Origin: an uncultured Sulfitobacter sp.
GTDB lineage: Bacteria; Pseudomonadota; Alphaproteobacteria; Rhodobacterales; Rhodobacteraceae
Length of the DNA stretch: 64,000 nucleotides
Direction of reading: 5' to 3'
Assembly (NCBI GenBank): GCA_947501805.1
Contig: CANMXJ010000015.1
Location: forward strand, 1-64,000
The number at the start of each line of letters is the position of its first letter. The stretch's first letter is position 1. The notes below the pieces were generated by a model. The model did not search any database and was not told where the DNA came from. It saw only the letters and a program-made list of their open reading frames with translations. A program made the position numbers and the translations under genes. Below are positions 3,957 through 30,257 of the stretch, piece by piece.

Positions 3957-4013
3957 TTGGCCCTGCCGCCAGACAAGGCCACCTCAGACAACAGAGGCCG
4001 CCTTGCGATTGGT

Positions 4014-6497: not shown

Positions 6498-6515
6498 GAT
6501 GTGCTCCTTGCGGGA

Positions 6516-8000: not shown

Positions 8001-8005
8001 CTAGT

Positions 8006-9523
8006 TCACCGCATTTGTGTATCGTGAAGGTCGTGATCGTCATCAATCTGATGTGCCTTTATTTCGCGGATCAGCGTGCGCAGGTGCAATCCGATCACCA
8101 GCAGGATCATCACAAAAATGATAAAGGAAATCGGTCGATCAATCATATCCATTGGCGTCTTCAGGCGTGGCAGGGCAGAGCGCAGTTTCACCTCCAAAAT
8201 GCCCCCCAACACCATGCCAAGTATGATCGGTACCACAGGCAGGTTCAGACGTTTCAGGATCAGGCCCAATACCCCGAAACCTGCCGCCAACATACAATCG
8301 GTCAGCGAGTTGCGCAGGGAATAGACACCAACAAAAGACAGGATCAGGATCAACACACCAAGGAAGCGGGTCGGCACGCGAATGATCTTGGTCAGCAGAT
8401 TGGTGGAGACAAGCAAGAACAGGATCACAATCACGTTCAACAACAACAGCGCGAGATAAAGGCCGTAGACCAGATCAATGTTGTTCTGGAACAGCTGCGG
8501 TCCGGGGATCACGTTATGCACGTAAAATACCGACAGCATCATCGCGGTCAGCGCCTCACCCGGAATACCCAGTGCCAACAGCGGGATCATCGCGGCGGCA
8601 GGCACGGCGTTATTGGCGGCCTCGGATGCAATCAATCCTTCGGGCGCGCCTTTACCAAAGTCATCGGGCGTATCGGATGATTTCTGAGCGTAAGTGTAGC
8701 TCATGAACTGCGCTGTGAATTCGCCTACGCCGGGGATCATGCCCATCATCACACCCAAACTTGCGGAGACGGATGCCACACGTTTGTGCCCCATCAGTTC
8801 GCGAAATCCAGAGGTGAGCTTGCCCGAAACCGGCTGCGCCTCGGGCGAACTGTCTGGCGCGGTGAGCAGAAAGAACGCTTGGCTGAGCGCAAAGAGGCCC
8901 AACACCACCACAATCAGATTGATGCCCGAGGACAGAAAGGAATAACCGAAGGTGTACCGCTGTGTATACGTGAATGCGTCCAGCCCAATGGTGTTCAAGA
9001 AGATGCCAAACATTGCGAGCATACCTGCCGCAAAAATCTGCCCACGATGCGCAAGAACAACCAAGATAATACCGAGTAAAGCGGCGAGGAAAATCTCACG
9101 ACTGCCGAACATCGGGGCGATCAAAGCGAGGACCGGAGACAGGAGGATCAGGCACAAGATGCCAAAAATCCCGCCGAAAAACGAGGCGCTATAGGCAAGT
9201 GACAGCGCGCGATGCCCCTCACCCCTCTTTGTCATCGGGTAGCCGTCATAAGACGTCAGCGCGTTCACTGCCGTACCCGGCGTGTTGATCAGGATCGCCG
9301 GGATCGCGCCACCGTACATCGAGGATCCATAGATGCCGAGCAGCATGGTCAGGCCGACAATCGGGTCCAATGAAAACGTCGCGGGCAACAGGATCGCAAT
9401 CGCCACCGCGGGACCAACACCGGGGATCGCACCGATGATCACACCGCCAATGGAGCCAACCAGAAGGGCAACCATCACATCCCAGCGGGCCAGCATTTCG
9501 GCACCTGCAAGTAGATTTTCCAT
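8006..9523 (-). CDS. tctA: Tripartite tricarboxylate transporter, large permease TctA
   Basis: This is a 505-residue polytopic inner-membrane protein, the main translocation subunit of a TTT importer. The family hallmarks are GAIPGVGPAVAIAILLPATF near the N terminus, YGSSMYGGAIPAILINTPGT, and the second-half repeat MMGMIPGVGEFTAQFMSYTY. The start has AGGGGCCGGGC in front and lies 9 bp after the end of tctB. With TctB and the periplasmic receptor TctC it imports a carboxylate; the substrate is not readable. Confidence 0.93.
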   Translation of the reverse strand: MENLLAGAEMLARWDVMVALLVGSIGGVIIGAIPGVGPAVAIAILLPATFSLDPIVGLTMLLGIYGSSMYGGAIPAILINTPGTAVNALTSYDGYPMTKRGEGHRALSLAYSASFFGGIFGILCLILLSPVLALIAPMFGSREIFLAALLGIILVVLAHRGQIFAAGMLAMFGIFLNTIGLDAFTYTQRYTFGYSFLSSGINLIVVVLGLFALSQAFFLLTAPDSSPEAQPVSGKLTSGFRELMGHKRVASVSASLGVMMGMIPGVGEFTAQFMSYTYAQKSSDTPDDFGKGAPEGLIASEAANNAVPAAAMIPLLALGIPGEALTAMMLSVFYVHNVIPGPQLFQNNIDLVYGLYLALLLLNVIVILFLLVSTNLLTKIIRVPTRFLGVLILILSFVGVYSLRNSLTDCMLAAGFGVLGLILKRLNLPVVPIILGMVLGGILEVKLRSALPRLKTPMDMIDRPISFIIFVMILLVIGLHLRTLIREIKAHQIDDDHDLHDTQMR

Positions 9524-9532
9524 GCCCGGCCC

Positions 9533-10072
9533 CTAGAAGTAATTCAGCATGAGTTGGCGCAACCCGTCCGGCAGCACCTCGTAGATCTGACCCGCAGGCA
9601 GTTTGACCTGTAGGAGCGTCTTGAACAGCAAGACGATGATCACAGCAGATAGCAGAGTGGACAAAAGGAGCATGCGACTGCGATAGCCCACGCGCAGCAC
9701 AAGCAGCAGCGCAAAAATGATCGTTGCAGGAAGGTAGCCAGCATAAGGCACAGCGGCAGCGTAAGCGATGAACCACGCGGCATATTCAAGCGAGGCAATC
9801 CAAAGACCAACTTCGCGCCAACGACCGTCAAGCCGTTCTGACAAGGCCGACCCCAGCAGGTGCAGCGCCGCAAAAAAGCTCATCCCCGTGAGCGAAACCG
9901 CAGGCCAGAAACGGGGCTGCGCAGGCAACTTGCCACCAGCCTTGAACGCGGTCTGCTCAAACAGCTGTGACAGCAGGAAAAGCGAAACAATCAGCGCGAA
10001 CCATGCAAAGACGATGTCACCGGGACGACGATAGCGTTTGAACAACGCTTGAAGTGTACGCACCCGCGACAT
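9533..10072 (-). CDS. tctB: Tripartite tricarboxylate transporter, small permease TctB
   Basis: This is a small inner-membrane subunit of 179 residues with four predicted membrane segments, the TctB layout. The ORF track begins at a GTG (10093), but the ATG at 10072 is preceded by GGGGAGGGG at ideal spacing, so I take that start. It lies between tctC and tctA and completes the TTT system. Confidence 0.88.
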   Translation of the reverse strand: MSRVRTLQALFKRYRRPGDIVFAWFALIVSLFLLSQLFEQTAFKAGGKLPAQPRFWPAVSLTGMSFFAALHLLGSALSERLDGRWREVGLWIASLEYAAWFIAYAAAVPYAGYLPATIIFALLLVLRVGYRSRMLLLSTLLSAVIIVLLFKTLLQVKLPAGQIYEVLPDGLRQLMLNYF

Positions 10073-10102
10073 GTCAGCCCCTCCCCAATTCACCTTCGAG
10101 AA

Positions 10103-10125
10103 CAGGCCGGGCTTCCCCCGACCTG
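10103..10125 (-). terminator. Intercistronic hairpin between tctC and tctB
   Basis: An interrupted stem (CAGG-C-CGGG against CCCG-A-CCTG) with a 5-nt loop lies 14 bp after the tctC stop and before tctB. No T-run follows. It probably stabilises or partly terminates the binding-protein message. Confidence 0.5.
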
Positions 10126-10139
10126 CTTGTCAATTCAAG

Positions 10140-11084
10140 TTACTCGGACAGCATCGTATCAATGTTGCCCAATGTCTCGATGTCTTTGGTGATCTGCGAG
10201 GCGACAGCCGCCGCATCCTGCCAATACACCAGCGCACCGGTTTCTGCGGCCAGTTTCTGCGCGCGGTCTGACATCACCGTCTTTTGCGCAACTGCAATGA
10301 TCTTGGCGCGAACATCGTCAGGGGTGTCTTTGTGCACAAAAAGACCATTCCACAGGGCGACATCCAGATCAGGTGCCAGTTCCGTTACAGTTGGCGTGTC
10401 CGGCGTGAGCGGAATCCGCTCTGACCCGATAGACGCGAGTACCTTCACCTGATCAAGGCAAGGCAGGATCAGCTGCAAGGTGGTGTTGATTACATCAACA
10501 TCACCAGAGGCCAGCGTATTGCAGTCCAGCGCGTCAAATGCAGCATCGGAAGCGTAAGCAAAGCCCATTTCCTTGGCCAAAGCAAAAGTGACCTGCGTCG
10601 GGACAAGTGGCGCACCAAAATGGCCCAACACAACTTCATTATCTTTCGCATGGGCTGCAAGACCCGTCATATCATTATATGGCGCATCGCCACTTGTCGC
10701 GATGACAAACGGATAGGTCAGAAAGTTGCCCAAAGGCTCAAACGGGTCGGGGTTTAACTCAGGAATGCCGATCTGCGGACCCACAACAGGAATGGCGATG
10801 ATGAAAGACCCGATTGTATATCCGTCAGCAGGGGCGTTCGCGACTTCAATAGCACCGGGGAATGGACCACCGCCGCCACCCGGTTTATTCACAACGGCTG
10901 CTGCAACGCCGTATTCTGCCTGAAAGTCCTCGGCAATCATTCGTGTCAAGACATCTTCAAGATCGCCCGGCGGCCACGGCACAATGAACTGTACCGGCTT
11001 TTCAGGGTATTCCGCTTGAACCGCGCCAGCGAACGATGCTGCAGCAATCGCGGTTGCCGCCAGAGTCTTCACAAAGATATTCAT
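10140..11084 (-). CDS. tctC: Tripartite tricarboxylate transporter periplasmic receptor TctC
   Basis: This is the 314-residue periplasmic binding protein of the TTT system. The ORF track starts 24 bp upstream, but the ATG at 11084 has GGGAGAAATCA before it and gives a proper signal peptide (MNIFVKTLAATAIAAASFAG, cleavage near VQA). YPEKPVQFIVPWPPGD is the TctC-family start of the mature protein, and NKPGGGGGPF follows. It is the first gene of the tctCBA-ALDH-UPF0261 operon. A 17-nt palindrome lies just upstream. Confidence 0.92.
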   Translation of the reverse strand: MNIFVKTLAATAIAAASFAGAVQAEYPEKPVQFIVPWPPGDLEDVLTRMIAEDFQAEYGVAAAVVNKPGGGGGPFPGAIEVANAPADGYTIGSFIIAIPVVGPQIGIPELNPDPFEPLGNFLTYPFVIATSGDAPYNDMTGLAAHAKDNEVVLGHFGAPLVPTQVTFALAKEMGFAYASDAAFDALDCNTLASGDVDVINTTLQLILPCLDQVKVLASIGSERIPLTPDTPTVTELAPDLDVALWNGLFVHKDTPDDVRAKIIAVAQKTVMSDRAQKLAAETGALVYWQDAAAVASQITKDIETLGNIDTMLSE

Positions 11085-11101
11085 TGATTTCTCCCTAGAT
11101 C

Positions 11102-11118
11102 GGTTCATTTATTGAACC
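11102..11118. promoter_or_regulatory. Candidate IclR operator between tctC and iclR
   Basis: GGTTCATTTATTGAACC has perfect 6-bp arms around a 5-nt AT centre. It sits 17 bp upstream of the tctC start codon, within the 114-bp divergent region shared with the IclR-family gene. Position and symmetry suit an operator for that regulator. Confidence 0.6.
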
Positions 11119-11198: not shown

Positions 11199-12008
11199 AT
11201 GTCCGTTGTCGCCAAAGCAATCGAGCTTCTGGGGTACTTCTCCAAAGAGATGCCGGAGGTGGGCCTGTCCGAGCTTTGCCGCATGGCAAAGCGCGACAAA
11301 GCGACCACATACAGGCATCTGTCCGCACTTGAGGCGCTTGGGTTTATTGAACAAAACCGGATAACCAAGGCTTACCGGATTGGGCCTGCTGTTCTTCCGC
11401 TCGCCGAACTGAGGGAAACGACAGTACCCCGCCGCGAAGGTGCATTGTCCCCGCTAAAGGCGCTTGCAGATCTGACAGGTGAAACCGCACATGTCGCTGT
11501 CCTGTCAGGGCAATCCCTGCATTCGCTGGTATCGCGCGAATCGACAGCCCATAGCACGCGGGCGGTAATGGATGTGCGCCAGTTGCCGCTACATGCGACT
11601 GCTTCTGGTCTGTGCGCCTTGGCATTTGGTCCAACCGACTTGATGGACACAGCCATTGTCCATTTGCACCCCTTCACGGCGCAAACAGCGACGACACAAG
11701 ATGCCGTAGCGGCCCTGACAAAGCTGGCGCAGGAAACCGGTTTTGCCGAGAGCAAGGGCAGCTTTGAAAGTGACATTCACAGCATCGCTGTTCCCGTTTT
11801 CGACCATCAAGGCCAGTTGGCCGGCACCGTGGCTGTCGCCGGTGTGGCAAACCGGATGACGCCAGAACTTGAACAAAAGACCCGCACCGGTTTGGTGAAG
11901 GCAAGCCGGGACATCACCCGTAATTGGGGCGGTACGATCCCCTCGCACATCGACGTCCTATGGCGCAAATCGCTTGAAGCAGATCAACAGAAAGAACTGG
12001 CACCATGA
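11199..12008 (+). CDS. IclR-family transcriptional regulator
   Basis: This 269-residue regulator has an N-terminal winged helix-turn-helix (residues about 1-60, with RDKATTYRHLSALEALGFIE) and a C-terminal effector-binding domain, with VAVLSGQSLHSLVSRES and IAVPVFDHQGQLAGTVAVAG. It is divergent from tctC and overlaps the aminotransferase start by 4 bp (ATGA). It is probably the local regulator of the transporter operon and the aminotransferase, with the transported carboxylate or a product as effector. Confidence 0.9.
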   Translation: MSVVAKAIELLGYFSKEMPEVGLSELCRMAKRDKATTYRHLSALEALGFIEQNRITKAYRIGPAVLPLAELRETTVPRREGALSPLKALADLTGETAHVAVLSGQSLHSLVSRESTAHSTRAVMDVRQLPLHATASGLCALAFGPTDLMDTAIVHLHPFTAQTATTQDAVAALTKLAQETGFAESKGSFESDIHSIAVPVFDHQGQLAGTVAVAGVANRMTPELEQKTRTGLVKASRDITRNWGGTIPSHIDVLWRKSLEADQQKELAP

Positions 12009-13351
12009 AAGATTCCAATTTCCTAAAAGAAAACAACGCCCGTCACTTCTGGCACCCGATGACCTCACCAGAGGACAGTAAGCACACACCTCCCAAGATC
12101 ATTACCAGCGCGCAAGGTGTGTCGATTACCGACATCGACGGACATGAAGTGATCGACGCGGTTGGAGGTCTATGGAACGTAAACCTTGGCTATTCCTGCC
12201 AGCCGGTCAAAGACGCAATTGCCGCACAACTGGACACCCTGCCCTATTATTCAACATTTCGCGGCACCAGTAATGATGCGGCGATTGAGTTGTCTTATGA
12301 GCTGGCCGAATTTTTTAAACCGGACGGCATGCTGCGGTCGTTCTTCACCTCTGGTGGATCGGATTCGATCGAGACCGCCCTGCGCCTATCGCGCCAATAT
12401 CATAAACTGCGTGGTGAACCGGGCCGCACCAAGTTCCTGAGCCTCAAGAAGGGCTATCACGGCACACATTTTGGCTGTGCCAGCGTCAACGGCAACGCGA
12501 ATTTCCGTAACGCCTATGAACCGCTGATGCCCGGCTGTTTCCATATTCCTGCGCCGTATACGTACCGCAATCCCTTCAACGAGACCGATCCAGAAAAGCT
12601 GGCCCATCTCTGTGTTGCCGCCTTGGAAGACGAAATCGCGTTCCAAGGGGCCAACACCATTGCGGCCATGATCATCGAGCCGATCTTGGGCGCTGGCGGC
12701 GTCATCCCGCCGCATCCCTCCTTCGCGCCGATGGTGCAAGATATCTGTAACCGCAATGGCATCCTTTTGATCACCGACGAGGTCATCACCGCCTACGGGC
12801 GCACAGGTGCATGGTCCGGCGCGCGGCTTTGGGGCATCAAACCCGACATGATGTGTACCGCCAAGGCCATTACCAACGGTTTCTTCCCTTTTGGTGCCTT
12901 GATGCTGGGCGAGCGGATGGTGGAAGCCTTTGAAGACAATCCAGCGGCCAAGATCGCGCATGGTTATACATATTCCGGTCATCCGGTTGGTGCGGCGGCA
13001 GCACTGGCCTGTCTTGCGGAAACGAAACGCCTGAACGTGGTTGAAAACGCAGCAGAACGCGGCACCCAAATGTTCAATGGCTGTCAGGCGTTGATGGAAA
13101 AGCATGATATCATCGGCGATGTCCGTGGTGGCTATGGCCTGATGACCGCAATTGAAATGGTCAGTGACCGCACCACCAAATCCCCCATCAACGCCAAATC
13201 TGCGCAGGTTGTGCAGGATGTGGCTTACGAGAACGGCGCGATGGTGCGCATTTCAGGTCCGAACCTTATCCTGTCACCGTCTTTGGTGTTGAGTGCGGAA
13301 GATGTTGATACGATCCTTTCCGCGCTTGACGCAGGCCTATCAGCCGCTTGA
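12005..13351 (+). CDS. Class III pyridoxal-phosphate aminotransferase (omega-amino acid:pyruvate type)
   Basis: This 448-residue fold-type I aminotransferase moves an amino group from an amine or omega-amino acid to a keto acid. Visible motifs are FFTSGGSDSIETALRLSRQY for cofactor phosphate binding, the Asp motif LLITDEVITAYGRTG, the PLP lysine in CTAKAITNGFFPFGA, and THR-type HGYTYSGHPVG. N-terminal HFWHPMT is typical of the beta-alanine/taurine-pyruvate subgroup. It is coupled to iclR. With the divergent ALDH it could form an amine-to-carboxylate pathway. The donor is not known. Confidence 0.9.
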   Translation: MKDSNFLKENNARHFWHPMTSPEDSKHTPPKIITSAQGVSITDIDGHEVIDAVGGLWNVNLGYSCQPVKDAIAAQLDTLPYYSTFRGTSNDAAIELSYELAEFFKPDGMLRSFFTSGGSDSIETALRLSRQYHKLRGEPGRTKFLSLKKGYHGTHFGCASVNGNANFRNAYEPLMPGCFHIPAPYTYRNPFNETDPEKLAHLCVAALEDEIAFQGANTIAAMIIEPILGAGGVIPPHPSFAPMVQDICNRNGILLITDEVITAYGRTGAWSGARLWGIKPDMMCTAKAITNGFFPFGALMLGERMVEAFEDNPAAKIAHGYTYSGHPVGAAAALACLAETKRLNVVENAAERGTQMFNGCQALMEKHDIIGDVRGGYGLMTAIEMVSDRTTKSPINAKSAQVVQDVAYENGAMVRISGPNLILSPSLVLSAEDVDTILSALDAGLSAA

Positions 13352-16778: not shown

Positions 16779-17951
16779 ATGGGTCAACGAAAATCATATG
16801 AAGGTGTGGTTCTCGCAGCCCCGTACACTGAACCTTACGTTCGCTATTCAGCTGAAACAGCGCATTGGTGGATTGCACGGGCATTGCGTGGCTCATTAAA
16901 GGCAGCGGGTTTGCGCAAGGACGATCTGGACGGGTTTTGCGCCAGCAGCTTCAGTCTTGGCCCCGATACCGCCGTTGGTTTGACCCAACATCTGGGCCTT
17001 TGCCTACGGTGGCTTGATCATATTCCCATGGGCGGGGCGAGCGGGATCGTTGCGATACGTCGTGCGGCCCGCGCGGTTCAGGCGGGTGATGCTGACATAA
17101 TCGCCTGCGTCGCCGGCGACACCAATCACATCGACAGCTTTCGCAAACTCCTGTCAGGCTTTTCACGTTTCGCCACGGATGCAGCCTATCCTTACGGCGC
17201 GGGTGGCCCGAACATGAGCTTTGCGCTACTGACAGACCGCTATATGCAGGAATATGGTGCAACGCGTGAAGATTTCGGCAAGATTTGCATTGCCCAGCGC
17301 GACAATGCTCTGAAATTCCCGACTGCCTTAATGAAAAAACCGCTCAGCATGGATGAATATCTCGGCGCACGGATGATCTCTGACCCGATCGCGCTGTTTG
17401 ATTGCGTGATGCCTTGCGCCGGAGCCGAGGCGTTTCTGATCATGACCGAGGAACGCGCCGTTCAACTTGGCTTGCCTTACGCGCGGATTTCCGGCGTGAT
17501 CGAACGGCACAATGCGCACCGCGATGATCCGATACAACTGCGCGGCGGGTGGACCATGGACATCGACGAACTGTATACGCAGGCACGCTGCGGCCCCGAG
17601 GCCATCGACGTGATGCAGACCTATGACGATTACCCCGTTATCTCGATGATGCAATTCGAGGATCTGGGGTTCTGTGCCAAAGGCGAAGGCCCTGATTTCG
17701 TACGCAGACATGACCTTGGCATCAATGGCAGCTTTCCCCACAACACATCAGGCGGCCAGCTTTCGGGCGGACAAGCAGGCGCTGCAGGCGGATACCTTGG
17801 CCTGACCGAAGCGATCCGGCAGGTCACGGGCTCCGCTGGCTCGACACAAGTTGCAGATGTGAAACGCGCATTGTTCTCGGGCTTTGGCATGATCAACTAT
17901 GACCGCGGCATCTGTTCGGGTGCTGTTATTCTAGAGGGGGCAGCAACATGA
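16779..17951 (+). CDS. Thiolase-superfamily protein lacking the usual catalytic cysteine (Ltp-type)
   Basis: The ATG at 16779 (CAGGACAA before it) gives 390 residues and fits homologue N termini better than the track start. The fold is thiolase-like: an AGDADIIACVAGD nucleophile-elbow region, NTSGGQLSGGQAGAAGGY for the GxNxxGG region, and a C-terminal GICSGAVIL. At the place of the nucleophilic cysteine it has PMGGASG (residues 84-89), so classical thiolysis is unlikely. Such Cys-less members, for example Ltp2, work as acyl-CoA aldolases with a DUF35 partner. It overlaps the DUF35-fusion gene by 4 bp, which supports that reading. Confidence 0.82.
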   Translation: MGQRKSYEGVVLAAPYTEPYVRYSAETAHWWIARALRGSLKAAGLRKDDLDGFCASSFSLGPDTAVGLTQHLGLCLRWLDHIPMGGASGIVAIRRAARAVQAGDADIIACVAGDTNHIDSFRKLLSGFSRFATDAAYPYGAGGPNMSFALLTDRYMQEYGATREDFGKICIAQRDNALKFPTALMKKPLSMDEYLGARMISDPIALFDCVMPCAGAEAFLIMTEERAVQLGLPYARISGVIERHNAHRDDPIQLRGGWTMDIDELYTQARCGPEAIDVMQTYDDYPVISMMQFEDLGFCAKGEGPDFVRRHDLGINGSFPHNTSGGQLSGGQAGAAGGYLGLTEAIRQVTGSAGSTQVADVKRALFSGFGMINYDRGICSGAVILEGAAT

Positions 17952-19198
17952 GCACTGATGCTCCGGCAAGGAAAAATCCGCAAAAACGGTCCCGTTCGCC
18001 ACAATCCCCTCCGCAAACACGCAGTCGTGCTGCCCTCGGCCTGACGGTTGCCGCCGCCCAAGGACGCTTCGCACTGCAAGAATGCGCAGAATGCGGGAGC
18101 ATTCAGTATCCGCCCCGCGATGCTTGTGTGACATGTCTTTCAACCGATCTGCCGTGGCAGAACGTCGACCCTTCCGGCACCGTAATGGCCCACACCACTG
18201 TGCGCATTTCCGTAAACCTTTATTTTCGTGAACGTGGCGATTGGCGCATCGGACTTGTCCGCCTTGATGCTGGTCCAAGTGTTGTCTGCCATCTACATGC
18301 CGCGACGGCCCCCAACACCCGCGTGCGCCTGATCAACCGCCTTGATCGCTCCGGGCAAGCGGTGCTGATCGCCCTCCCCCATGACGCCCCCGCCACCCTG
18401 AAGGATGATCCACAGTTGCAACATATGACGTCATCCCCCCGCAATCGCCGAATTCTGATCACCGACGCCCGTTCAGCCAATGCTGCGCCGATCACGCAGG
18501 CCTTGATAAAGGCTGGTGCAGCCACCGTCTTTGTAGGCGAGGCTGAAAGCTGGCGGCCCTATCCGCAACGCGCGCAATTGGAAGCTATCGAAGGTGTCAG
18601 CATCCTGCCGCTGGACGTGACCGACACGTCATCCGTCAAACGCCTTGCTGCGGAACTGGGGGGCAAGACCGATATCCTGATCAACAATGCCCGCTTCATG
18701 CGCCCCGGCGGCGTGATGGCACGGGGCGATACTGCTTTTGCCGCGCAGGAAATGGAGGTGAATGTGCTGGGCCTGATGCGGTTGGCGCAGGCCTTTGGTC
18801 CAGCCATGTGTTCACGCACCGCAGACGGGGCGAACTCCGCTGTTGCATGGGTCAATATCCTGTCGGTACATGGCCTTTCGAATGATCCCGCATACGGATG
18901 TTTTTCAGCCAGCCACGCCGCCGCGCGGTCCGTTGCCCAAAACATGCGGTGTGATTTCGCACCCTCCGGTTTGCGCGTGATGAACACTTACGTAGGGCCA
19001 ACGGATGATGATTGGTATGACCCGTTGCCGCCACCCAAGGTTGCCCCGAACGCGCTTGCCCGCAGCATTGTTGCCGGTCTTGAAGAAGGGTTGGAGGACA
19101 TCTTTTGCGGTGAGGTCGCACAGGATTTTATTCAGCGATTTCGCATCAACCCCGATGTGGTGGAGCGCGAATTAACAATTTCAGGAGGCAGCACATGA
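17948..19198 (+). CDS. DUF35 (zinc-ribbon plus OB fold) fused to a degenerate short-chain dehydrogenase domain
   Basis: This 416-residue two-domain protein has DUF35 at residues about 30-150: a rubredoxin-like knuckle with Cys46, 49, 60 and 63, then an OB-fold with SGTVMAHTTVRI. Residues 167-400 align with SDRs by LDVTD, DILINNA, VNILSVHG and the C-terminal helices. The cofactor motif, normally TGxxxGxG, reads TDARSANA at 172-179. The catalytic YxxxK reads FSASH at 319-323. DUF35 proteins partner thiolase-like enzymes, and the overlap with the upstream gene fits. I infer a structural or acyl-binding role for the SDR half. Confidence 0.85.
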   Translation: MSTDAPARKNPQKRSRSPQSPPQTRSRAALGLTVAAAQGRFALQECAECGSIQYPPRDACVTCLSTDLPWQNVDPSGTVMAHTTVRISVNLYFRERGDWRIGLVRLDAGPSVVCHLHAATAPNTRVRLINRLDRSGQAVLIALPHDAPATLKDDPQLQHMTSSPRNRRILITDARSANAAPITQALIKAGAATVFVGEAESWRPYPQRAQLEAIEGVSILPLDVTDTSSVKRLAAELGGKTDILINNARFMRPGGVMARGDTAFAAQEMEVNVLGLMRLAQAFGPAMCSRTADGANSAVAWVNILSVHGLSNDPAYGCFSASHAAARSVAQNMRCDFAPSGLRVMNTYVGPTDDDWYDPLPPPKVAPNALARSIVAGLEEGLEDIFCGEVAQDFIQRFRINPDVVERELTISGGST

Positions 19199-19974
19199 GC
19201 CAGCAAACCCTGAACGATCTGGCCCATGGCATCGCCTCCGGTGATCTTAGGGTTGTTGATCTGACCCACACACTCGATCCTGATTTCCCTGTGATCATCC
19301 TGCCACCGGAGTTTGGCCAATGCGCGCGTTTTCGCATGGAAGAAGTCTCCGCGTATGATCATCGCGGGCCTGCGTGGAAGTGGCATAACCTGACGCTGAA
19401 CGAACATACCGGCACACATTTCGATGCTCCGTCCCATTGGGTTTCAGGGCGTGATTTGCCTAACAATTCAGTGAACGAAATCCCGCCAGGGGTATTTATC
19501 GGACCAGTTGTGGTGATTGATTGCGTGGCGGGTGCTGCCCAAGACGCGGACTTTGAACTGACGCCCGAAGTGATCTTGGCCCATGAGGCCACACACGGTA
19601 AAATTCCCGAAGACAGCTGGGTTCTGATGCGCACAGACTGGTCCAAAAAACGCGGCGCGGCTTATCTGAACATGCAAGAGGACGGCCCACATTCACCCGG
19701 CCCGACACCGGATGCGATCAATTTGTTGATCGAGGGACGCAACATTCGCGGCTTTGGAACAGAGACAGTGGGCACCGATGCGGGTCAGGGCGCGCATTAC
19801 ACGCCGCCCTACCCCGCACATTTCTATCTACATGGCGCGGGCAAATACGGGCTGCAATGTCTGTGCAATCTGGATCAACTGCCGCCAACCGGTGCCGTGC
19901 TGATAGCACCGCCGTTAAAGATCAAAGACGGTACCGGCAGCCCATTGCGGGTGATGGCGCTGGTCGCAGGTTAA
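19195..19974 (+). CDS. Cyclase-family metal-dependent hydrolase (kynurenine formamidase-like)
   Basis: This 259-residue protein of the cyclase/KynB-like family carries the metal motif HTGTHFDAPSHW, together with VVDLTHTLDPDFPV at the N terminus and TDWSKKRG. Members hydrolyse amides, lactones or isatin. The start has AGGAGGCAGCAC in front and overlaps the DUF35-fusion stop (ATGA). It ends the thiolase-DUF35-cyclase trio. Its stop codon overlaps that of the convergent SDR gene. The substrate is unknown; a ring- or lactone-opening step in the same pathway is plausible. Confidence 0.85.
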   Translation: MSQQTLNDLAHGIASGDLRVVDLTHTLDPDFPVIILPPEFGQCARFRMEEVSAYDHRGPAWKWHNLTLNEHTGTHFDAPSHWVSGRDLPNNSVNEIPPGVFIGPVVVIDCVAGAAQDADFELTPEVILAHEATHGKIPEDSWVLMRTDWSKKRGAAYLNMQEDGPHSPGPTPDAINLLIEGRNIRGFGTETVGTDAGQGAHYTPPYPAHFYLHGAGKYGLQCLCNLDQLPPTGAVLIAPPLKIKDGTGSPLRVMALVAG

Positions 19975-20696
19975 AGCGCCAGCGAGCCTACGCTGCCGCC
20001 ACCACAAACATAAAGCGTCTGTCCTGTGACAAACCCGTTTTCGGGATCACAGAAATACAAAAACGCGTTGCTGACATCGCGCGGCGTGCCAAGGCGGCCC
20101 ACCGGAATACGCTCGGCCAAGGCTTCTTCGCGCTCGCTGCCCTCGGGGATGATGCCCCAGAAGTTATCGGTCAGCACCGGACCGGGCGCGACCACATTCA
20201 CCGTGATGCCGTGCGGTGCCAGTTCCAGCGCCCATGTCCGCGCCATGCCAACTATCCCCGCTTTGGTCGCTGCATAGGCGGTGCGCGTCGGCACGCCCAA
20301 CGCAGCGCGTGAGCCGTTGAACAGCACACGGCCAAACTTGCGGTTTTTCATCGCGGGCAGGCAGGCTTGGGTCAGGGTCAGCGCAGCGCCTAGATGCAAT
20401 TGCGCAAGACCCGTGATGTCGGCAGGTGTGACATCTTCCAGCAGGTTCGGCCAGATCAGGCCCGCGTTGTGCACCAGATGCGTGACCTCATGTTGCGCGG
20501 CAATTTCCGCACTGGCCTCGGCCACGGCATCCGCGTCCAGCAGATCCACTTCGACGGGCACCATGTTCGCATGGCTCCAGTCAGGCGCACCACGCGACAG
20601 GCTGACCACGGTATAGCCTTTTTCCAGCAGACGTCCGGCAAGATCCGCCCCGATGCCTTTACTCCCGCCCGTGATCACAGCTGTCAGATTGTCCAT
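19971..20696 (-). CDS. SDR-family oxidoreductase
   Basis: This 241-residue classical SDR is complete: TGGSKGIG for cofactor binding, HNAG, a serine in FNGSRAA, and the catalytic YAATK. GAPDWSHANMVPVEVDLLDA suggests no obvious NADP specificity. It is the last gene of the Rieske operon, so it could oxidise the dihydrodiol or a hydroxyacyl-CoA product. It contrasts with the degenerate SDR domain in the facing operon. Confidence 0.88.
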   Translation of the reverse strand: MDNLTAVITGGSKGIGADLAGRLLEKGYTVVSLSRGAPDWSHANMVPVEVDLLDADAVAEASAEIAAQHEVTHLVHNAGLIWPNLLEDVTPADITGLAQLHLGAALTLTQACLPAMKNRKFGRVLFNGSRAALGVPTRTAYAATKAGIVGMARTWALELAPHGITVNVVAPGPVLTDNFWGIIPEGSEREEALAERIPVGRLGTPRDVSNAFLYFCDPENGFVTGQTLYVCGGGSVGSLAL

Positions 20697-20715
20697 TCCG
20701 TTTCCTCTTCGCCGC

Positions 20716-22332
20716 TTAGGTCTTGGCGCGTTTTTTCAACGCGCGTGTATCCGTTGTCTTGGGGTCATCCAACAAATCGACCGCCTTTGATTTCAGCACG
20801 GCGCGTTGCAGTTTCTGCGTGGCCGTGAGTGGCAGAGCATCAACAAAAGCCACAAAGCCGGGTGCCTTGTAATAGGCAAGCTGACCCAGGCACCATGTCA
20901 CAATTTCCTGCGCTTTCGCAGCACGGTCAGCCGGAACGGCCGTCAACACTACACAGGCAAACACCTCATCCCCACGCACCGCATCCGGCACCGCCGTGAC
21001 CGCAACACTGGCGATATCGGGGTGCCGCATCAGGGTTGATTCAACCTCAACAGCAGCAATGTTTTCGCCAGAGCGGCGGATCACATTCTTTTTGCGATCC
21101 ACAAAAAACATCGCCCCATCGGAATCCTGACGCACGATGTCACCAGTGTGGAACCAGCCGTCTTGCCAGACTTCCGCTGTCGCTTCGGCGTTCTTGAAAT
21201 AGCCTGCAAAGAACCCCTTGCGCGGATCGTCCCCCTTGCGCCGCACCAGAAGTTCACCTTGGGCGGCATCCTGACCGGCATCGTCGATGATCCGCACGTC
21301 CAAATCGCCTTCCGGTTTGCCCAAACAGCTTTCTCCAACACGGCGCGGGGTACGGTTGGCGCAGATCACGGCCCCCGCGCCTGTTTCCGTCATCGCCCAA
21401 GCCTCGATCAACGGAAAACCGAAGCGGGCTTCGAAATCGCCGTGCAGTTTCTGATCAACGCCAGCGCCGAAACCGAACCGGACGGAGTGATCCTTGTCGG
21501 ATGGATCGGGATCAGCGCCCATCAACATGGACGGCATCACCCCCAGATAATGCAGGCAGGTCGCGCCAGAAGTACGCACGCTGTCCCACCATGTGCGCGG
21601 GTGGAAACGGTCCAGCGCAGTCAGGCATCCGCCCACAGCAATCATCGCCATGAAGGAATACGCCATCGCGTTCATGTGGAAAATCGGCAGCGGCGTGATC
21701 ATACGCTCGCCGTCCTCTTTCAGTGCGCAAAGCCCACCGGTTGTAGCATACCAGCGGCCCGCTTCCAGAAAATAGGTGTTGGTCAGGATGCACCCCTTGG
21801 GCTGGCCGGTTGTGCCGGACGTATAGAGCATCGCGGCCTCAGGATCGCCGTCGCGTATGGCAACAGCTGCGTTTTCGCGCGGTGCAGGTAGGGACTGCGC
21901 GGGCGCGATAACGGGCATGTTGATGCCAGCACTTCTTGCTGCCTCTCGCAACTCCTCGCAGCGGTTTTCAAGCGCCACCGCCAGCACAGGTTCCGCGTGA
22001 CCGATCATATAGGTCAGCTCTGCCAGCCGCAGATCGGGGTTTACCGGCACAACCGACACGCCCAAGCTGTTCAATGCCAGCCACCAGAGGAAAAATGCCG
22101 GACGGTTCTCCATCAACAGCATCACGCGCTGGCCCTGCACATATCCGGCAGTCTGCAAATCCTGCGTCAAACGCGTCACTTCTGCGGCAGCTTGGCCGTA
22201 TGTAATTGCGCCCGCGTTGATCCCATAAACCTGCGCGGTTTCGTCCAGCACATTCAGGAAGGGACGTTCGGGCCAGCGACCAGCCGCCGCGCCAAACGCC
22301 TCAAAGACCGTGCGCACCTGATCCCCGATCAC
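20716..22332 (-). CDS. AMP-forming acyl/aryl-CoA ligase
   Basis: This 538-residue ANL-family ligase shows the P-loop-like LYTSGTTGQPKGC, the GFPLIEAWAMTETGAGAV adenylate motif, WFHTGDIV for ATP ribose binding and a C-terminal LTATQKLQR lysine motif. It starts with GTG overlapping the beta-subunit stop (GTGA), so translation is coupled. It activates a carboxylic acid to its CoA thioester. The Rieske oxygenase upstream suggests an aromatic or ring acid. The substrate cannot be set from sequence. Confidence 0.88.
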   Translation of the reverse strand: MIGDQVRTVFEAFGAAAGRWPERPFLNVLDETAQVYGINAGAITYGQAAAEVTRLTQDLQTAGYVQGQRVMLLMENRPAFFLWWLALNSLGVSVVPVNPDLRLAELTYMIGHAEPVLAVALENRCEELREAARSAGINMPVIAPAQSLPAPRENAAVAIRDGDPEAAMLYTSGTTGQPKGCILTNTYFLEAGRWYATTGGLCALKEDGERMITPLPIFHMNAMAYSFMAMIAVGGCLTALDRFHPRTWWDSVRTSGATCLHYLGVMPSMLMGADPDPSDKDHSVRFGFGAGVDQKLHGDFEARFGFPLIEAWAMTETGAGAVICANRTPRRVGESCLGKPEGDLDVRIIDDAGQDAAQGELLVRRKGDDPRKGFFAGYFKNAEATAEVWQDGWFHTGDIVRQDSDGAMFFVDRKKNVIRRSGENIAAVEVESTLMRHPDIASVAVTAVPDAVRGDEVFACVVLTAVPADRAAKAQEIVTWCLGQLAYYKAPGFVAFVDALPLTATQKLQRAVLKSKAVDLLDDPKTTDTRALKKRAKT

Positions 22333-22802
22333 GGCAAAAGCTGAATGTTGCGGAAGGCTGCATCGCAGTTGAGGATATCCACCCGCTTGTTTGCAATGCG
22401 CAAGGCACCATCCACAAGTGCCAGATCGTGCCGCGCGGTGAGGGCCAACAATTGCTGCTCATCCAGACGCGTTTCCACGTAGTGCATGAATGTGGTTGTC
22501 ACAAAACTATCGTCGTTCATCTCGTCCACAAAGGGGCGCTGGATCACATGATGGCAGCGGCTTTTGGGTTTCTGGCTGAACGTGCGCGCGCCGTTCAACC
22601 GCTCCACCCGCAGTTTCAGCATAAACATATCTTCATACATCAACGAGGTCTGGTTGATCGGGTCGGTCTGCTTGTACTCCAGCGGCATCCAGTAATGCCC
22701 ATCCGGCAGCCAAAGCGCGAGCCAGTCGTCATAGCGGCCCTCGTCCAACATGCGCACTTCTTCATAGATGAAATCAATCAATTGTTCCTTGGAAACACTC
22801 AT
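22329..22802 (-). CDS. Aromatic-ring-hydroxylating dioxygenase beta subunit
   Basis: This is a 157-residue small subunit of the NTF2-like fold, structural partner of the Rieske alpha subunit. Visible features are YEEVRMLDEGRYDDWLALW, the typical start with the WLALW cradle, and DGHYWMPL. I use the ATG at 22802, which overlaps the alpha stop (ATGA), instead of the track start 39 bp upstream. The length suits the benzoate/salicylate-hydroxylase type of beta subunit. Confidence 0.9.
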   Translation of the reverse strand: MSVSKEQLIDFIYEEVRMLDEGRYDDWLALWLPDGHYWMPLEYKQTDPINQTSLMYEDMFMLKLRVERLNGARTFSQKPKSRCHHVIQRPFVDEMNDDSFVTTTFMHYVETRLDEQQLLALTARHDLALVDGALRIANKRVDILNCDAAFRNIQLLP

Positions 22803-24130
22803 GTCGCATCCCCCAGACTGACCATCATGAACTTGCGCCACGCGTCAAACTGGTTGCGCATCTGGCGTTCGGTTGTGCCGTTCTCGACCGCTTCCTTGCT
22901 GAAATCCTCGTCACCTGTACGCAAACGCTGGATATTCACCCATTCCAGCCCGTCCGCCATCATGCCTTCCTGCGCACGCTCGTACATTTCCAGATCGTCG
23001 TGCCCGACAATCGACGTCGGCGCGTTGATCATGCGGTTGTACATCGCGGTGCGGGCCGTCAACTCGTCCGGCGCATCCACAAGACGGTAGATGTAGCTTT
23101 CAACAATGGTCTTGTCCGCACCGAGCGGAATGAAATTGCGCAGTTGCTGGATCGGACCCTTGATCATAATGTTGGGGAAATAGACGGTGTTATGGCGGTT
23201 TTCATCGAGGATCGCCTTGGCCTTCTCCTCGCCATAGCTCTCCACCATCGCCTCAAAATACCCCGGCACAGCAGAATAATCGGAGTGGATTGAATGATGG
23301 ACACCGGTATGACCATGGCCATTTGGCCATGTGCGGATGCCCATATCCTCAAAAAACTCATAAGCAGACATGAATGGTGCGATAATCTCCATCGCGGCCG
23401 GTTTGGGCGACCCTTCAGGCAGGTCCAGTTCCTCGAACAGTTTCACCGCCGTTCCGGCAGAGGATTCATGTGCCACCATCGGATGGCAAGTATCCGTCTG
23501 GTTTTCGACCAGCATTTTCCAGTTACAATGGTGCAGATAGCGCAGAGGTGATCCGACAACTTCAAGGCGCCCCGCAGGCGAGCGATCCACCATGTTGTCG
23601 ATAGAGGACAGGCTGTCGCCAAAGTAATCTTCGAAACTGATCCCCTCGGGGGCCAGCCGCGCAAAGATGAAGCCGCGATAGTTGTGAACCGCCCCCACCG
23701 CCTTCATGCCTTTGGCGCTTTCGGTCTGATCCAGGCCTGTATCTGTGTAGCCCTTTTTCAGCGGAATCGCGAGCAGGCAGCCATCGGTTTTGAACGACCA
23801 CGCATGATAGGGACAGCGGAAGAACTTGCCGGTGTTGCCCTGACGGTCGATCACGATCTTGGTGCCCTTGTGCGGGCAGCGGTTATACAAAACATGAATA
23901 TCGCCCGTCGAATGGCGCACCTGAATGACAGGCTGGTTGCCGATCTGGGTGGCAAAATAATCACCTTTGTTCGCGGTCTGGCTTTCATGCCCCACAAACA
24001 CCCAGGCATTTGCAAAAAGGTGCTTCATCTCAAGCTGGTACACTTCCTGCGAGATGTAGATGTCGCGATGCACCTGATGTGGTTCAACCAGTGCTGCAAC
24101 GCTGTCAGGGTTCTCGGTATAGCTGCCCAT
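22799..24130 (-). CDS. Rieske non-heme iron oxygenase alpha subunit
   Basis: This is a catalytic subunit of 443 residues. The Rieske [2Fe-2S] ligands are Cys85-x-His87 and Cys106-x2-His109 (CPHKG, CPYHAW). The mononuclear iron site and bridging Asp appear as ENQTDTCHPMVAH, with Asp213, His216 and His221. With the beta subunit and the reductase upstream it forms a complete three-component ring-hydroxylating system, probably two-protein electron transfer because the reductase carries its own [2Fe-2S]. The start has AAGGAGAGCCACC. The substrate class is likely an aromatic carboxylate, by context only. Confidence 0.92.
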   Translation of the reverse strand: MGSYTENPDSVAALVEPHQVHRDIYISQEVYQLEMKHLFANAWVFVGHESQTANKGDYFATQIGNQPVIQVRHSTGDIHVLYNRCPHKGTKIVIDRQGNTGKFFRCPYHAWSFKTDGCLLAIPLKKGYTDTGLDQTESAKGMKAVGAVHNYRGFIFARLAPEGISFEDYFGDSLSSIDNMVDRSPAGRLEVVGSPLRYLHHCNWKMLVENQTDTCHPMVAHESSAGTAVKLFEELDLPEGSPKPAAMEIIAPFMSAYEFFEDMGIRTWPNGHGHTGVHHSIHSDYSAVPGYFEAMVESYGEEKAKAILDENRHNTVYFPNIMIKGPIQQLRNFIPLGADKTIVESYIYRLVDAPDELTARTAMYNRMINAPTSIVGHDDLEMYERAQEGMMADGLEWVNIQRLRTGDEDFSKEAVENGTTERQMRNQFDAWRKFMMVSLGDAT

Positions 24131-24141
24131 GGTGGCTCTCC

Positions 24142-25092
24142 TTATAGGTCCAGAACCAAGCGGGGTGACTTGGACCGGCTGACGCAGATTTGCATGACTT
24201 TGCCGCTGGCGCGTTCGTCTTCGGACAATACCACATCGCGGTGATCCGGGGTGCCACTGATCACGTCACATTGACAGATCCCGCAATCGCCGCGCTGGCA
24301 ATCATACATCACATCGACGCCGCCGCCTTCCAATGCCTCAATAATGCTTTGCCCTGCGTTGACGGTGAACACCGCACCGGTTGACGCCACTTCGACCTCG
24401 AAGTCATCATCATCAGTTTGCGGGGCGACGGTTTCGAACAACTCGATATGCACGTGTTCAGCGGGTATATTTGCTGCCTCTGCCGCGGCTCGCGCCGCAT
24501 CAATCATCCCGCGCGGACCGCAGAAATAGACGTGGGCATCACCCAGATTTGCCATGATTGCGGACAGATCAAGCGCCGTTGCCGGATCGTCGTCAAAATG
24601 CAGGTGCAGCGCATCCCCGCAAAGCGCGGCCAGTTCGTCGGTATAGGCCATCACATTCCTAGATCGCCCCGCATAATGAAACACAAACCCCTGTCCAGCC
24701 GCCGCAAGCTGTGTCGCCATCGAGATCATCGGCGTTACGCCAATACCGCCCGCCAACAAGACAGCAGGCGCAGAGACATCCAGTGGAAAGTCGTTCTTTG
24801 GTGCCGAAAACCCGATGTTGTCACCCTGCTTGAGAGCATGCATGAACGTGGAACCGCCCTGCCCTTCCGGTTCACGTTGCACAGCGATCCGGTAGGACAC
24901 TGGTTCTCTATCCGGTGGTGTGAAATCGATCAGCGAATAGGCGCGGGTGTCATCACCGCTCACATCAAACAAGACATGTGATCCAGCGGTGTATACTGGC
25001 ATAACGCCATGATCCGTACGCCCCACCTCAAACGCGGTGATCCGGTCGGTTAGCTTTGTGACCGCCAAAACCTTGCCTTGAATCTTGTCCAT
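24142..25092 (-). CDS. Phthalate dioxygenase reductase-like ferredoxin:NAD(P) oxidoreductase
   Basis: This 316-residue reductase passes electrons from NAD(P)H through flavin to a C-terminal plant-type [2Fe-2S] centre and on to the Rieske oxygenase. Motifs are RAYSLIDFTPPD for flavin binding, LAGGIGVTPMISMATQLAAA for the nucleotide and CQRGDCGICQCDV for the cluster. I choose the ATG at 25092 with GGGAGA upstream; the track start adds seven residues. It is the first gene of the operon and diverges from marR. The module is the same type as the one fused to the dehalogenase at 50307. Confidence 0.92.
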   Translation of the reverse strand: MDKIQGKVLAVTKLTDRITAFEVGRTDHGVMPVYTAGSHVLFDVSGDDTRAYSLIDFTPPDREPVSYRIAVQREPEGQGGSTFMHALKQGDNIGFSAPKNDFPLDVSAPAVLLAGGIGVTPMISMATQLAAAGQGFVFHYAGRSRNVMAYTDELAALCGDALHLHFDDDPATALDLSAIMANLGDAHVYFCGPRGMIDAARAAAEAANIPAEHVHIELFETVAPQTDDDDFEVEVASTGAVFTVNAGQSIIEALEGGGVDVMYDCQRGDCGICQCDVISGTPDHRDVVLSEDERASGKVMQICVSRSKSPRLVLDL

Positions 25093-25112
25093 CAAATATC
25101 TCCCTTCAAACA

Positions 25113-25128
25113 ATATGAAAATTCATAT
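25113..25128. promoter_or_regulatory. Candidate MarR operator
   Basis: ATATGAAAATTCATAT has perfect 7-bp arms around AA. It lies 20 bp upstream of the reductase start and about 73 bp upstream of the divergent MarR gene, a typical autoregulatory placement. Confidence 0.6.
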
Positions 25129-25200
25129 AGTTTCAGTCAAGTGATTTCTCAACTCTGCAACCGCATTGACAATGTTACATCCAATCCTCGACATGAGGAT

Positions 25201-25683
25201 ATGCAAAGTTCACCGCCAGACAATTCTTCCAAAGAGACAACAGGATTTGTCGCTGACTATCTTCTGTACCTGCTTGCCGCCGCGAGCGAAGGGGCCAGCG
25301 CGCAATTTCATGAAGAGGTTCGCAATAAGGGTCTGCGCGTCCCCGAATGGCGGGTGCTGGCCTGTCTGAATGATCTTGATGGTGCGATGATCACACATCT
25401 GGCCAAGATTTCGCTGTTCGAGCAATCCCGACTGACCCGTATCATTGCCCAGATGGAGGAGCGTGGCCTTGTGGTGCGGCAAGGTGATCCCAAAGATGGC
25501 CGCCGCGTGCGGGTTTTTCTAACCGATGAAGGGCGCAATGTGGCTGGCGAGTTGGTGCCGCAGGCAAAAAAACACGAAGCAAGCCTGTTGGCACAACTTG
25601 ATCAACAAAAGGCATCTGATCTGAAGCCCGCCTTGCAAGCCTTGCTGGCCACACTTCAGAAAAGCCCTGACGGCAATCGCTGA
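25201..25683 (+). CDS. MarR-family transcriptional regulator
   Basis: This 160-residue winged-helix regulator contains the MarR core (VPEWRVLACLNDLDGAMITH, then the recognition helix SLFEQSRLTRIIAQMEERGL and the wing DPKDGRRVRVFLT). I take the ATG at 25201, preceded by GAGGAT, because the 41 extra residues of the track ORF do not look like coding sequence and would cover the operator. It is divergent from the Rieske operon and probably represses it until an aromatic ligand or CoA thioester binds. Confidence 0.88.
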   Translation: MQSSPPDNSSKETTGFVADYLLYLLAAASEGASAQFHEEVRNKGLRVPEWRVLACLNDLDGAMITHLAKISLFEQSRLTRIIAQMEERGLVVRQGDPKDGRRVRVFLTDEGRNVAGELVPQAKKHEASLLAQLDQQKASDLKPALQALLATLQKSPDGNR

Positions 25684-25765: not shown

Positions 25766-27451
25766 TTATCCGCGCTGAAACGTTACCTGCCCGTCGCAAA
25801 TCGTTACCATGGCCTCTACGCGCGGCACGTCCGGCGGGGGCACAATCGCAATGTCTTCACTCAGGACGACAACGTCAGCCATCATGCCAGCTTTCAACTG
25901 GCCCTTGCGGTCTTCGTTGAACTCTACCCATGCGTTGTCTCTTGTGTAGCTGGCCAGCGTATCCGCCAGTGTCTGCGTTTGATCGCGCCAGCCTTCCCCC
26001 AGATCAAGCGGCGCGATCGCCGCCTTGATGTTGTCCATCACGTCTACGGGTATCACGGGCCAGTCGGTTGAAAAGATAACCTTCGCACCTGCAGCGCGGA
26101 TATCCTGCCATGCATACGCCCCCGCAATTTGATGGTCATGTAGATATTGACCGACACCTGTTGGCGGAAAAATATGACCGATCGGCGCATGCCCCGGCTG
26201 GATCGAGGCAACAATATCAAGCTCGGCCAGACGCGGGATATCATCCAGATGCATCACCTCCAGATGTTCGATCCGGTGGCGGCTGTCGCGCTTGCCGTTT
26301 GCATCACGTGCAGCCTCATAGGCGTCGATGGTGCGGCGCACGCCAGCATCGCCAATGGCATGCACCGCGATCTGGAAACCATTGCGATCCGCGATTGTTG
26401 CGGCGGCGACAAAATGCTCTTGGGTAAAGACCTCGTCCCCCATGTTATCATTCGCGCCCATCTTGCCGGGGTACGGTTGCAGCATCAGCGCGGTGCCGCT
26501 TTCGACCACGCCGTCGATGAACATCTTCATGTGGCCACACCAGACTTTGTCACCTTGAAAACGGTCCCGCATCGGCACACCTTCGGCCTCAATCCGGCTC
26601 AGATCGTCAGTGCCTTTGAAATGGAACGGGACCATGGTGCGGCAATGCAAACGCCCTTCGGCCTCCAGCTCGTTCAACAGTTCAAGCTGGTAGACATTTC
26701 CGTCCATCAAGTGCAGCCCGGTGATACCCTGTTCGGCACAATGGCGCAGGCCCGCTTCGATTGCGTCCTTGTCCATTTTTCGCTGCTCTGGTGTGGCGGC
26801 AGGATCAGGGTCACGGCCCGTGACCAAGCCAAGCATTTCGCGCCCCTTGTGGCGGGTCAGTTCCAGAATAGGACCATAAGCACCAGGCTCCAGCAACTCG
26901 CCATTGGCGAGACCATCCTCGCCCATCACGATCACCGATCCCGCATCCACTTCTCCGCCCTGTAAAAGACCGGCAGCCTCCAAGGCCGCCGTATTCGCCC
27001 AGATGGTGTGGTGGTCCGGAGCGAACATTGCAAGCGGGCGGTCGGGCAGGATGGCGTCAAGGTCATGGCGTGTGAGCGTGTTGCCCGTGCCAAGGATCCC
27101 GTAATCGGCCATCACACAAAAGACGAGGTCATCATCAGGGTTTTCGGCAGCATAAGGCAGGATGAGTTTGCGCATCTCCTCCAGCCCTTCGACGTCATAC
27201 AAACTCAGCAGGCTCAGTTCTATCGACCCGCCAAAAAGATGCACGTGACTGTCAATGAAACCTGGCATCACCGTGCCACCATGGGCATCAATGACACGGG
27301 TCTGCGGACCGGCAAGTGCCTTGATCCCATCGTTGTCACCAACCGCACTCAGCGTGCCACCGGTGATCGCAAGCGCCTGCGCTTCCGGCATGTCAGGGTC
27401 AAAAGTGATCAACGTGCCATTGTGAATGATGATGTCAGGCGTAGCGGTCAT
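25766..27451 (-). CDS. Amidohydrolase family protein (YtcJ-like)
   Basis: This 561-residue TIM-barrel hydrolase has GTVMPGFIDSHVHLFGGS as the first metal motif, AVHAIGDAGVRRTIDAYEAA for later metal histidines, RIEHLEVMH, and FSTDWPVIPVD with the catalytic Asp. The YtcJ/imidazolonepropionase-like group hydrolyses amides, but most substrates are unknown. I use the ATG at 27451 (GGAGAACCCTTT upstream). It follows the Pot-type importer operon after a hairpin, so it probably cleaves an amide imported by that system. Confidence 0.85.
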   Translation of the reverse strand: MTATPDIIIHNGTLITFDPDMPEAQALAITGGTLSAVGDNDGIKALAGPQTRVIDAHGGTVMPGFIDSHVHLFGGSIELSLLSLYDVEGLEEMRKLILPYAAENPDDDLVFCVMADYGILGTGNTLTRHDLDAILPDRPLAMFAPDHHTIWANTAALEAAGLLQGGEVDAGSVIVMGEDGLANGELLEPGAYGPILELTRHKGREMLGLVTGRDPDPAATPEQRKMDKDAIEAGLRHCAEQGITGLHLMDGNVYQLELLNELEAEGRLHCRTMVPFHFKGTDDLSRIEAEGVPMRDRFQGDKVWCGHMKMFIDGVVESGTALMLQPYPGKMGANDNMGDEVFTQEHFVAAATIADRNGFQIAVHAIGDAGVRRTIDAYEAARDANGKRDSRHRIEHLEVMHLDDIPRLAELDIVASIQPGHAPIGHIFPPTGVGQYLHDHQIAGAYAWQDIRAAGAKVIFSTDWPVIPVDVMDNIKAAIAPLDLGEGWRDQTQTLADTLASYTRDNAWVEFNEDRKGQLKAGMMADVVVLSEDIAIVPPPDVPRVEAMVTICDGQVTFQRG

Positions 27452-27472
27452 AAAGGGTTCTCCAAACGAAAT

Positions 27473-27498
27473 GCGGCCCCGAAACACATCGGGGCCGC
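27473..27498 (-). terminator. Hairpin between the Pot binding-protein gene and the amidohydrolase
   Basis: GCGGCCCCG and CGGGGCCGC form a perfect 9-bp GC stem with an 8-nt loop, 7 bp after the binding-protein stop. On the minus strand ATTTCGTTTGG follows. This is the strongest hairpin of the operon and probably limits read-through into the amidohydrolase. Confidence 0.65.
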
Positions 27499-27505
27499 CT
27501 CTGTG

Positions 27506-28525: not shown

Positions 28526-28549
28526 ATCGTTTCTCCCGTTGGTTTTTGG

Positions 28550-30254: not shown

Positions 30255-30257
30255 ACA

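Follow-up and report, generated by a model that had tools for sequence, protein, structure and literature searches.

What a dehydrogenase-like protein does once its cofactor-binding and catalytic motifs are gone is the question raised by a gene at positions 17948-19198 (+ strand) of the stretch of DNA analyzed here, 64,000 nucleotides from an uncultured Sulfitobacter sp. that we refer to as the window. The gene encodes a protein of 416 amino acids with no internal stop, in which a DUF35 portion is located N-terminally to an SDR domain. The zinc ribbon (Pfam zf-ChsH2, 2.7e-10) covers residues 35-68 (18050-18151), with its cysteines arranged as C46-x2-C49-x10-C60-x2-C63, and is followed at residues 70-127 (18155-18328) by an OB_ChsH2_C domain (Pfam, 1.2e-9) that matches the DUF35 of ChsH2 in PDB entry 6ok1_B (1.2e-4). 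The C-x2-C-x10-C-x2-C ribbon and the OB fold thus place this portion with the ChsH2-type DUF35 proteins, and the spacing of the four cysteines is the same as in TcChsH2 (PMC12329534). The SDR half extends over residues 165-400 (18440-19147) and is recognized by the Pfam model adh_short at residues 169-353 (2.8e-18). It retains the fold signatures LDVTD at residue 222, NNA at residue 246 and NILS at residue 303, and both Pfam and Foldseek match it to SDR structures. The best Foldseek match of the predicted model is 5u4s (TM 0.82 by target length), although the model is modest (pLDDT 63, pTM 0.61) and was built on a five-sequence alignment, which makes it too weak for a reading of the pocket. 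Upon inspection, the classical catalytic motifs TGxxxGxG and YxxxK are both absent, being replaced by TDARSANA at residues 172-179 (18461-18484) and FSASH at residues 319-323 (18902-18916), respectively. A preliminary description of this DNA had proposed a DUF35-SDR fusion that keeps the fold signatures but has lost the glycine motif and the catalytic Tyr and Lys, and the domain matches and the motif inspection agree with it on both points.

The same losses recur in a comparison set of 54 distinct proteobacterial DUF35-SDR fusions. None of them contains TGxxxGxG; the first glycine of the motif is replaced in all 54 proteins, by an Asp in 50 of these, and some retain one glycine (TDGRxxxG). The Tyr and Lys of YxxxK are both retained in a single protein, and nine fusions from the family of the Variovorax-like genome G751 have kept the Lys (FSASK). 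The four cysteines of the zinc ribbon are present in all 54 fusions. Among the unfused SDR relatives, 12 of 13 contain TGxxxGxG and all 13 contain YxxxK, and in a tree that includes these relatives the fusions form one clade of single origin (support 99/87). The SDR half has dN/dS values of 0.04-0.23 (Nei-Gojobori, close pairs), its mean identity to the window protein is equal to that of the DUF35 half (0.55 and 0.54, respectively), and R252, R290, D293, G294 and R334 are invariant in the SDR half of the fusions. The conserved motif loss, the low dN/dS and the equal identity of the two halves indicate that the SDR half is, as far as sequence comparisons can tell, a pseudoenzyme domain that is maintained under purifying selection rather than decayed, and that, with few exceptions in the clade, it is unable to act as a normal dehydrogenase. 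The preliminary description had held that homologs with intact and active SDR motifs would make this copy a decayed gene, but the losses turned out to be shared among the proteobacterial fusions. The sole member with YxxxK (L088 from genome G811, TYSASK) is located inside the FSASK clade, and its glycine motif is still degenerate (TDGKTAVGQA).

Full-length fusions were identified in 30 of the 395 sampled genomes of the order, as well as in further families of the Alphaproteobacteria and in the family to which G751 belongs. This spread across several families led us to reject a sampling artefact from a single lineage. A match to the fusion was also found in 36 plasmid records, mostly from Sulfitobacter and Roseibium/Labrenzia. 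A plasmid of Paroceanicella profunda (L080) contains a divergent ligase-thiolase-DUF35-SDR set at positions 3144-7059, in which the fusion has 366 amino acids and a very degraded SDR half, the thiolase still contains YDDY, and there is no cyclase gene among the annotated neighbors.

The neighboring genes provide the identity of the fusion protein, as a complete iad (indole-3-acetate degradation) cluster spans positions 16779-25683 of the window. ATGA overlaps join the fusion gene to both the upstream thiolase-like gene and the downstream cyclase gene, suggesting that the three genes belong to a single operon. The cyclase gene (19195-19974, + strand) encodes IadI, isatin hydrolase A, which matches PF04199 and PDB entry 5nnb (1.9e-147) and contains HTGTHFDAPSH, GLQC and WKW, consistent with the isatin hydrolase motifs HxG[T/A]HxDxPxH, GLQC/GLAS and WxW/F (PMC6117287). 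The cyclase that abuts the fusion in Roseibium is nearly identical to the 5nnb protein, LaIHA, an isatin hydrolase with measured activity (PMC6117287). On the minus strand follow the genes for IadJ, an intact SDR with TGGSKGIG and YAATK (19971-20696), the acyl-CoA ligase IadF (20716-22332; AMP-binding, 4e-55), the Rieske oxygenase beta subunit IadE (22329-22841; PDB 7yls_A, 2.3e-42), the alpha subunit IadD (22799-24130; full-length matches of 565-567 bits to Variovorax IadD, PDB 9o71/7yls), and the reductase IadC, assigned by a domain match and synteny (24142-25113). The MarR regulator IadR (25078-25683, + strand) has its best PDB match in 3cdh (1.8e-46), an IAA-binding regulator from R. pomeroyi (PMC9613470).

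In a Variovorax-like genome (L057), the genes are ordered iadC-D-E-F-G-[fusion]-I-J, and the alpha subunit shares about 95% identity with Variovorax IadD (7yls). The gene order from C to J is identical in Roseibium (L076) and in Ruegeria pomeroyi (L078), a species that was among the IAA-degrading strains tested (PMC9613470), and IadJ in the window has the same position as in these three loci. Since the fusion occupies the H position in a locus whose alpha subunit is this close to Variovorax IadD, as it does in Roseibium and R. pomeroyi, the window protein is, judged by its gene context, IadH. Neither the iad pathway nor the iadH gene is new, and iadH is needed for anthranilate formation in Variovorax (PMC12633357). 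Compared to the Variovorax iad locus (IadC-J and IadR), the Variovorax-like genome has the same genes in the same order, and the window has the same genes, but with G-H-I on the opposite strand to C-D-E-F-J. A steroid or bile-acid side-chain cluster, which had been considered because of the similarity to Ltp2, was dropped since the neighbors are iad genes.

Further observations concern the surroundings of these loci. The iad locus in genome G367 (L075) contains two IadG-like thiolase genes, around positions 6378 and 10378. On plasmid pR76 of Agrobacterium pusense (L081, 4224-5870), a gene for a three-domain TPP enzyme, a candidate isatinate decarboxylase, is located next to the genes for the thiolase, the fusion and the cyclase. 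In the window, the iad cluster is adjoined at positions 25766-31337 by an amidohydrolase gene and a set of genes for an ABC transporter with a solute-binding protein. The minus strand at positions 5265-11108 contains genes for a UPF0261 protein, an aldehyde dehydrogenase and a TctA/TctC tripartite transporter, followed on the opposite strand by an open reading frame (11199-12008) and a class-III aminotransferase gene (12005-13351).

The gene upstream of iadH encodes IadG (16779-17951, + strand; the open reading frame is listed from 16713, but orthologs favor a start at 16779), a thiolase-fold protein with the active-site signature of the Ltp2 and Sal aldolases. A glycine is located at the position of the nucleophilic cysteine of thiolases (PMGGASG, 17025-17045), YDDY replaces the HDxF motif (17622-17633; YDHF in Ltp2 and YDCY in Sal), and GGQLSGGQ (17751-17774) corresponds to the Gln347/Gln352 pair of Sal. 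These features, including both glutamines, are invariant in all 25 IadG orthologs. With Gly for the nucleophilic Cys and Tyr for the His of the HDxF type, IadG lacks the residues that define a thiolase, although Pfam identifies a thiolase C-terminal domain. Both Sal and Ltp2 are retro-aldolases with a thiolase fold and depend on a partner protein with a DUF35 (PMC12329534, PMC11321319), and the best PDB matches of IadG are Ltp2 (6ok1) and the YDCY-bearing 9myr, which going by this motif is apparently CtSal; BbsB (7pxp) is also matched. The general acids known from the two aldolases, Tyr344 in Ltp2 and Cys304 in Sal, are replaced in IadG by Gln and Asp, respectively, which is the main weakness of the aldolase assignment. 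For this reason we classify IadG as neither Ltp2 nor Sal, although it probably works in a similar way. The predicted model of IadG, from a five-sequence alignment, was too poor to be used (pLDDT 42). The iadG and iadH genes are adjacent at every locus examined, in most cases with the four-base ATGA overlap, which agrees with the coupling to a thiolase-like protein that had been suggested earlier. The term "Cys-less" used for this protein applies to the nucleophilic residue only, as IadG contains nine cysteines.

Taken together, we consider it likely that the DUF35 domain of IadH docks on IadG to give a retro-aldolase, and that the SDR half has been kept as a structural or docking module; the complex, the reaction and the role of the pseudo-SDR half are all inferred from sequence. 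The oxygenase and reductase IadCDE together with IadJ are reported to convert IAA in Variovorax into C10H9NO4, named dioxindole-3-acetic acid (DOAA), which accumulates upon deletion of iadF, iadG, iadH or iadI (PMC12633357). IadF, going by its annotation, would form DOAA-CoA. The N-terminal DUF35 of IadH would then dock on IadG, and the pair would split DOAA-CoA, a tertiary beta-hydroxyacyl-CoA, in a redox-neutral reaction to give isatin plus acetyl-CoA. Isatin would be hydrolyzed by IadI to isatinate, which would be processed onward to anthranilate. The formula of DOAA minus acetic acid is exactly that of isatin; addition of water to isatin gives C8H7NO3 and a subsequent loss of CO2 gives C7H7NO, and both formulae have been reported (PMC12633357). 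Dioxindole, isatin and isatinic acid have been detected in Variovorax cultures (PMC9613470).

The pseudo-SDR half has been maintained ever since the fusion event and most likely has a structural or docking function, giving the complex its shape or passing on intermediates; a repurposed ligand cleft is possible. In the old cofactor cleft, an Asp is fixed at the position of the first glycine, with an Arg or Lys two residues further. A more speculative and rather doubtful idea is that this cleft binds the CoA-thioester or takes up isatin for the isatin hydrolase, so that IadG, IadH and IadI form a channelling complex around the pseudoenzyme. The preliminary description had proposed a structural or acyl-binding subunit of a new acyl-CoA-processing complex; a structural or binding role is still the likeliest, but the pathway is the known iad pathway and the protein is IadH.

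Among the alternatives, the one that survives best is that the pseudo-SDR half is an inert subunit in a mixed SDR oligomer with the active IadJ, comparable to BbsC and BbsD, and thereby ties DOAA formation to the aldolase. In the window and in the majority of complete iad loci, an intact IadJ is encoded beside the fusion or close to it, and BbsCD, which contains inactive pseudoenzyme subunits, is a published precedent (by a title cited in PMC10818641). We nevertheless regard it as improbable, as the reported pathway places IadF between IadJ and IadG and three genomes (G761, G646 and G230) encode IadG, IadH and IadI but no homologs of IadD or IadJ (E <= 1e-50), suggesting that a partnership with IadJ is not obligatory for IadH. 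In these three genomes, the G-H-I modules (L056, L060 and L073) are located near genes for a PF01177 protein (Asp/Glu/hydantoin racemase family) and an AMP-ligase, and the module in L073 additionally near a gene for a TPP-enzyme C-terminal protein. This context suggests that another route or substrate feeds the same cleavage module, the substrate of which may be a different one in these genomes.

Less probable again is the current interpretation of the pathway, which takes IadH for a functional alcohol dehydrogenase or reductase. A 2025 preprint assigned IadG as a ketothiolase and IadH as an alcohol dehydrogenase from annotation alone, and proposed that they remove the acetyl side chain together with IadF in a reductive manner to give C8H7NO2 (PMC12633357). 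This compound, which has the formula of dioxindole, accumulates in the iadI deletion strain instead of isatin, and the step was read as reductive. The YSASK of L088 also fits with this interpretation. However, the remaining 53 fusions lack YxxxK, the glycine motif is missing from the whole set, and IadG has no thiolase nucleophile. Moreover, no redox step is needed to close the carbon balance, which counts against a reductive dehydrogenase. Under the retro-aldolase model that we prefer, C8H7NO2 would presumably come from an off-path reduction of isatin.

It is very unlikely that IadG works as a genuine thiolase on a beta-keto intermediate and that IadH only provides the DUF35 subunit, as in BbsAB. 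The thiolase C-terminal domain and the match to BbsB are in line with such a function, but the Gly at the nucleophile position in all 25 orthologs and YDDY in place of the HDAF of BbsB are not, and on chemical grounds the tertiary alcohol of DOAA could not give a 3-ketoacyl-CoA. Finally, the idea that the SDR half is a decaying, functionless remnant accounts for the missing catalytic motifs but has a negligible probability and was rejected, given the purifying selection on this half, its identity to the window protein at the level of the DUF35 half, the recurrent Asp at the former glycine position and the five invariant residues.

None of the open-licence papers searched was found to describe IadH as a DUF35-pseudo-SDR protein or to report a retro-aldol step. 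The model proposes an enzyme that breaks the C-C bond in the iad pathway of auxin degradation and argues against the current labels "alcohol dehydrogenase" for IadH and "ketothiolase" for IadG. It predicts a cofactor-free, redox-neutral cleavage, which is open to direct test, and if true, DUF35-dependent retro-aldolases would extend from steroids to a plant hormone. The fusion is also a widespread case in which a catabolic cluster has retained a pseudoenzyme domain. Degradation of the iad type matters for root growth and occurs in many marine roseobacters.

Similar combinations of domains are known from other pathways. In anaerobic toluene degradation, BbsAB and BbsCD also bring a DUF35-thiolase pair and a pseudo-SDR into one pathway. 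However, BbsAB contains a true thiolase whereas IadG lacks the nucleophile, and the pseudo-SDR BbsC is a separate subunit beside an active SDR, whereas in IadH the DUF35 and the pseudo-SDR are located in one chain. The steroid side-chain aldolase Ltp2-ChsH2 (6ok1) resembles IadG-IadH in that the nucleophilic Cys is absent, a Tyr is present at the HDxF position, and the partner with the C4 zinc-ribbon DUF35 carries another domain. They differ in that IadG has YDDY rather than YDHF and no equivalent to Tyr344, and its inferred substrate is an oxindole rather than a steroid. The bile acid aldolase Sal-Shy (CtSal; 9myr by its YDCY) shares with IadG the Gly for the nucleophilic Cys, the YDxY motif and the Gln pair of GGQxSxGQ, but the catalytic Cys304 of Sal is an Asp in IadG. 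The release of acetyl-CoA and the binding of a DUF35 to the aldolase are known for Sal-Shy and proposed here for IadG-IadH. Shy has an active MaoC hydratase and a C3H1 zinc site, whereas IadH has a C4 site and a dead SDR. The DUF35 domains of the Ltp2 and Sal systems are carried by hydratase-type proteins, the second domain of ChsH2 being a hydratase part, whereas the DUF35 of IadH is carried by a pseudo-SDR.
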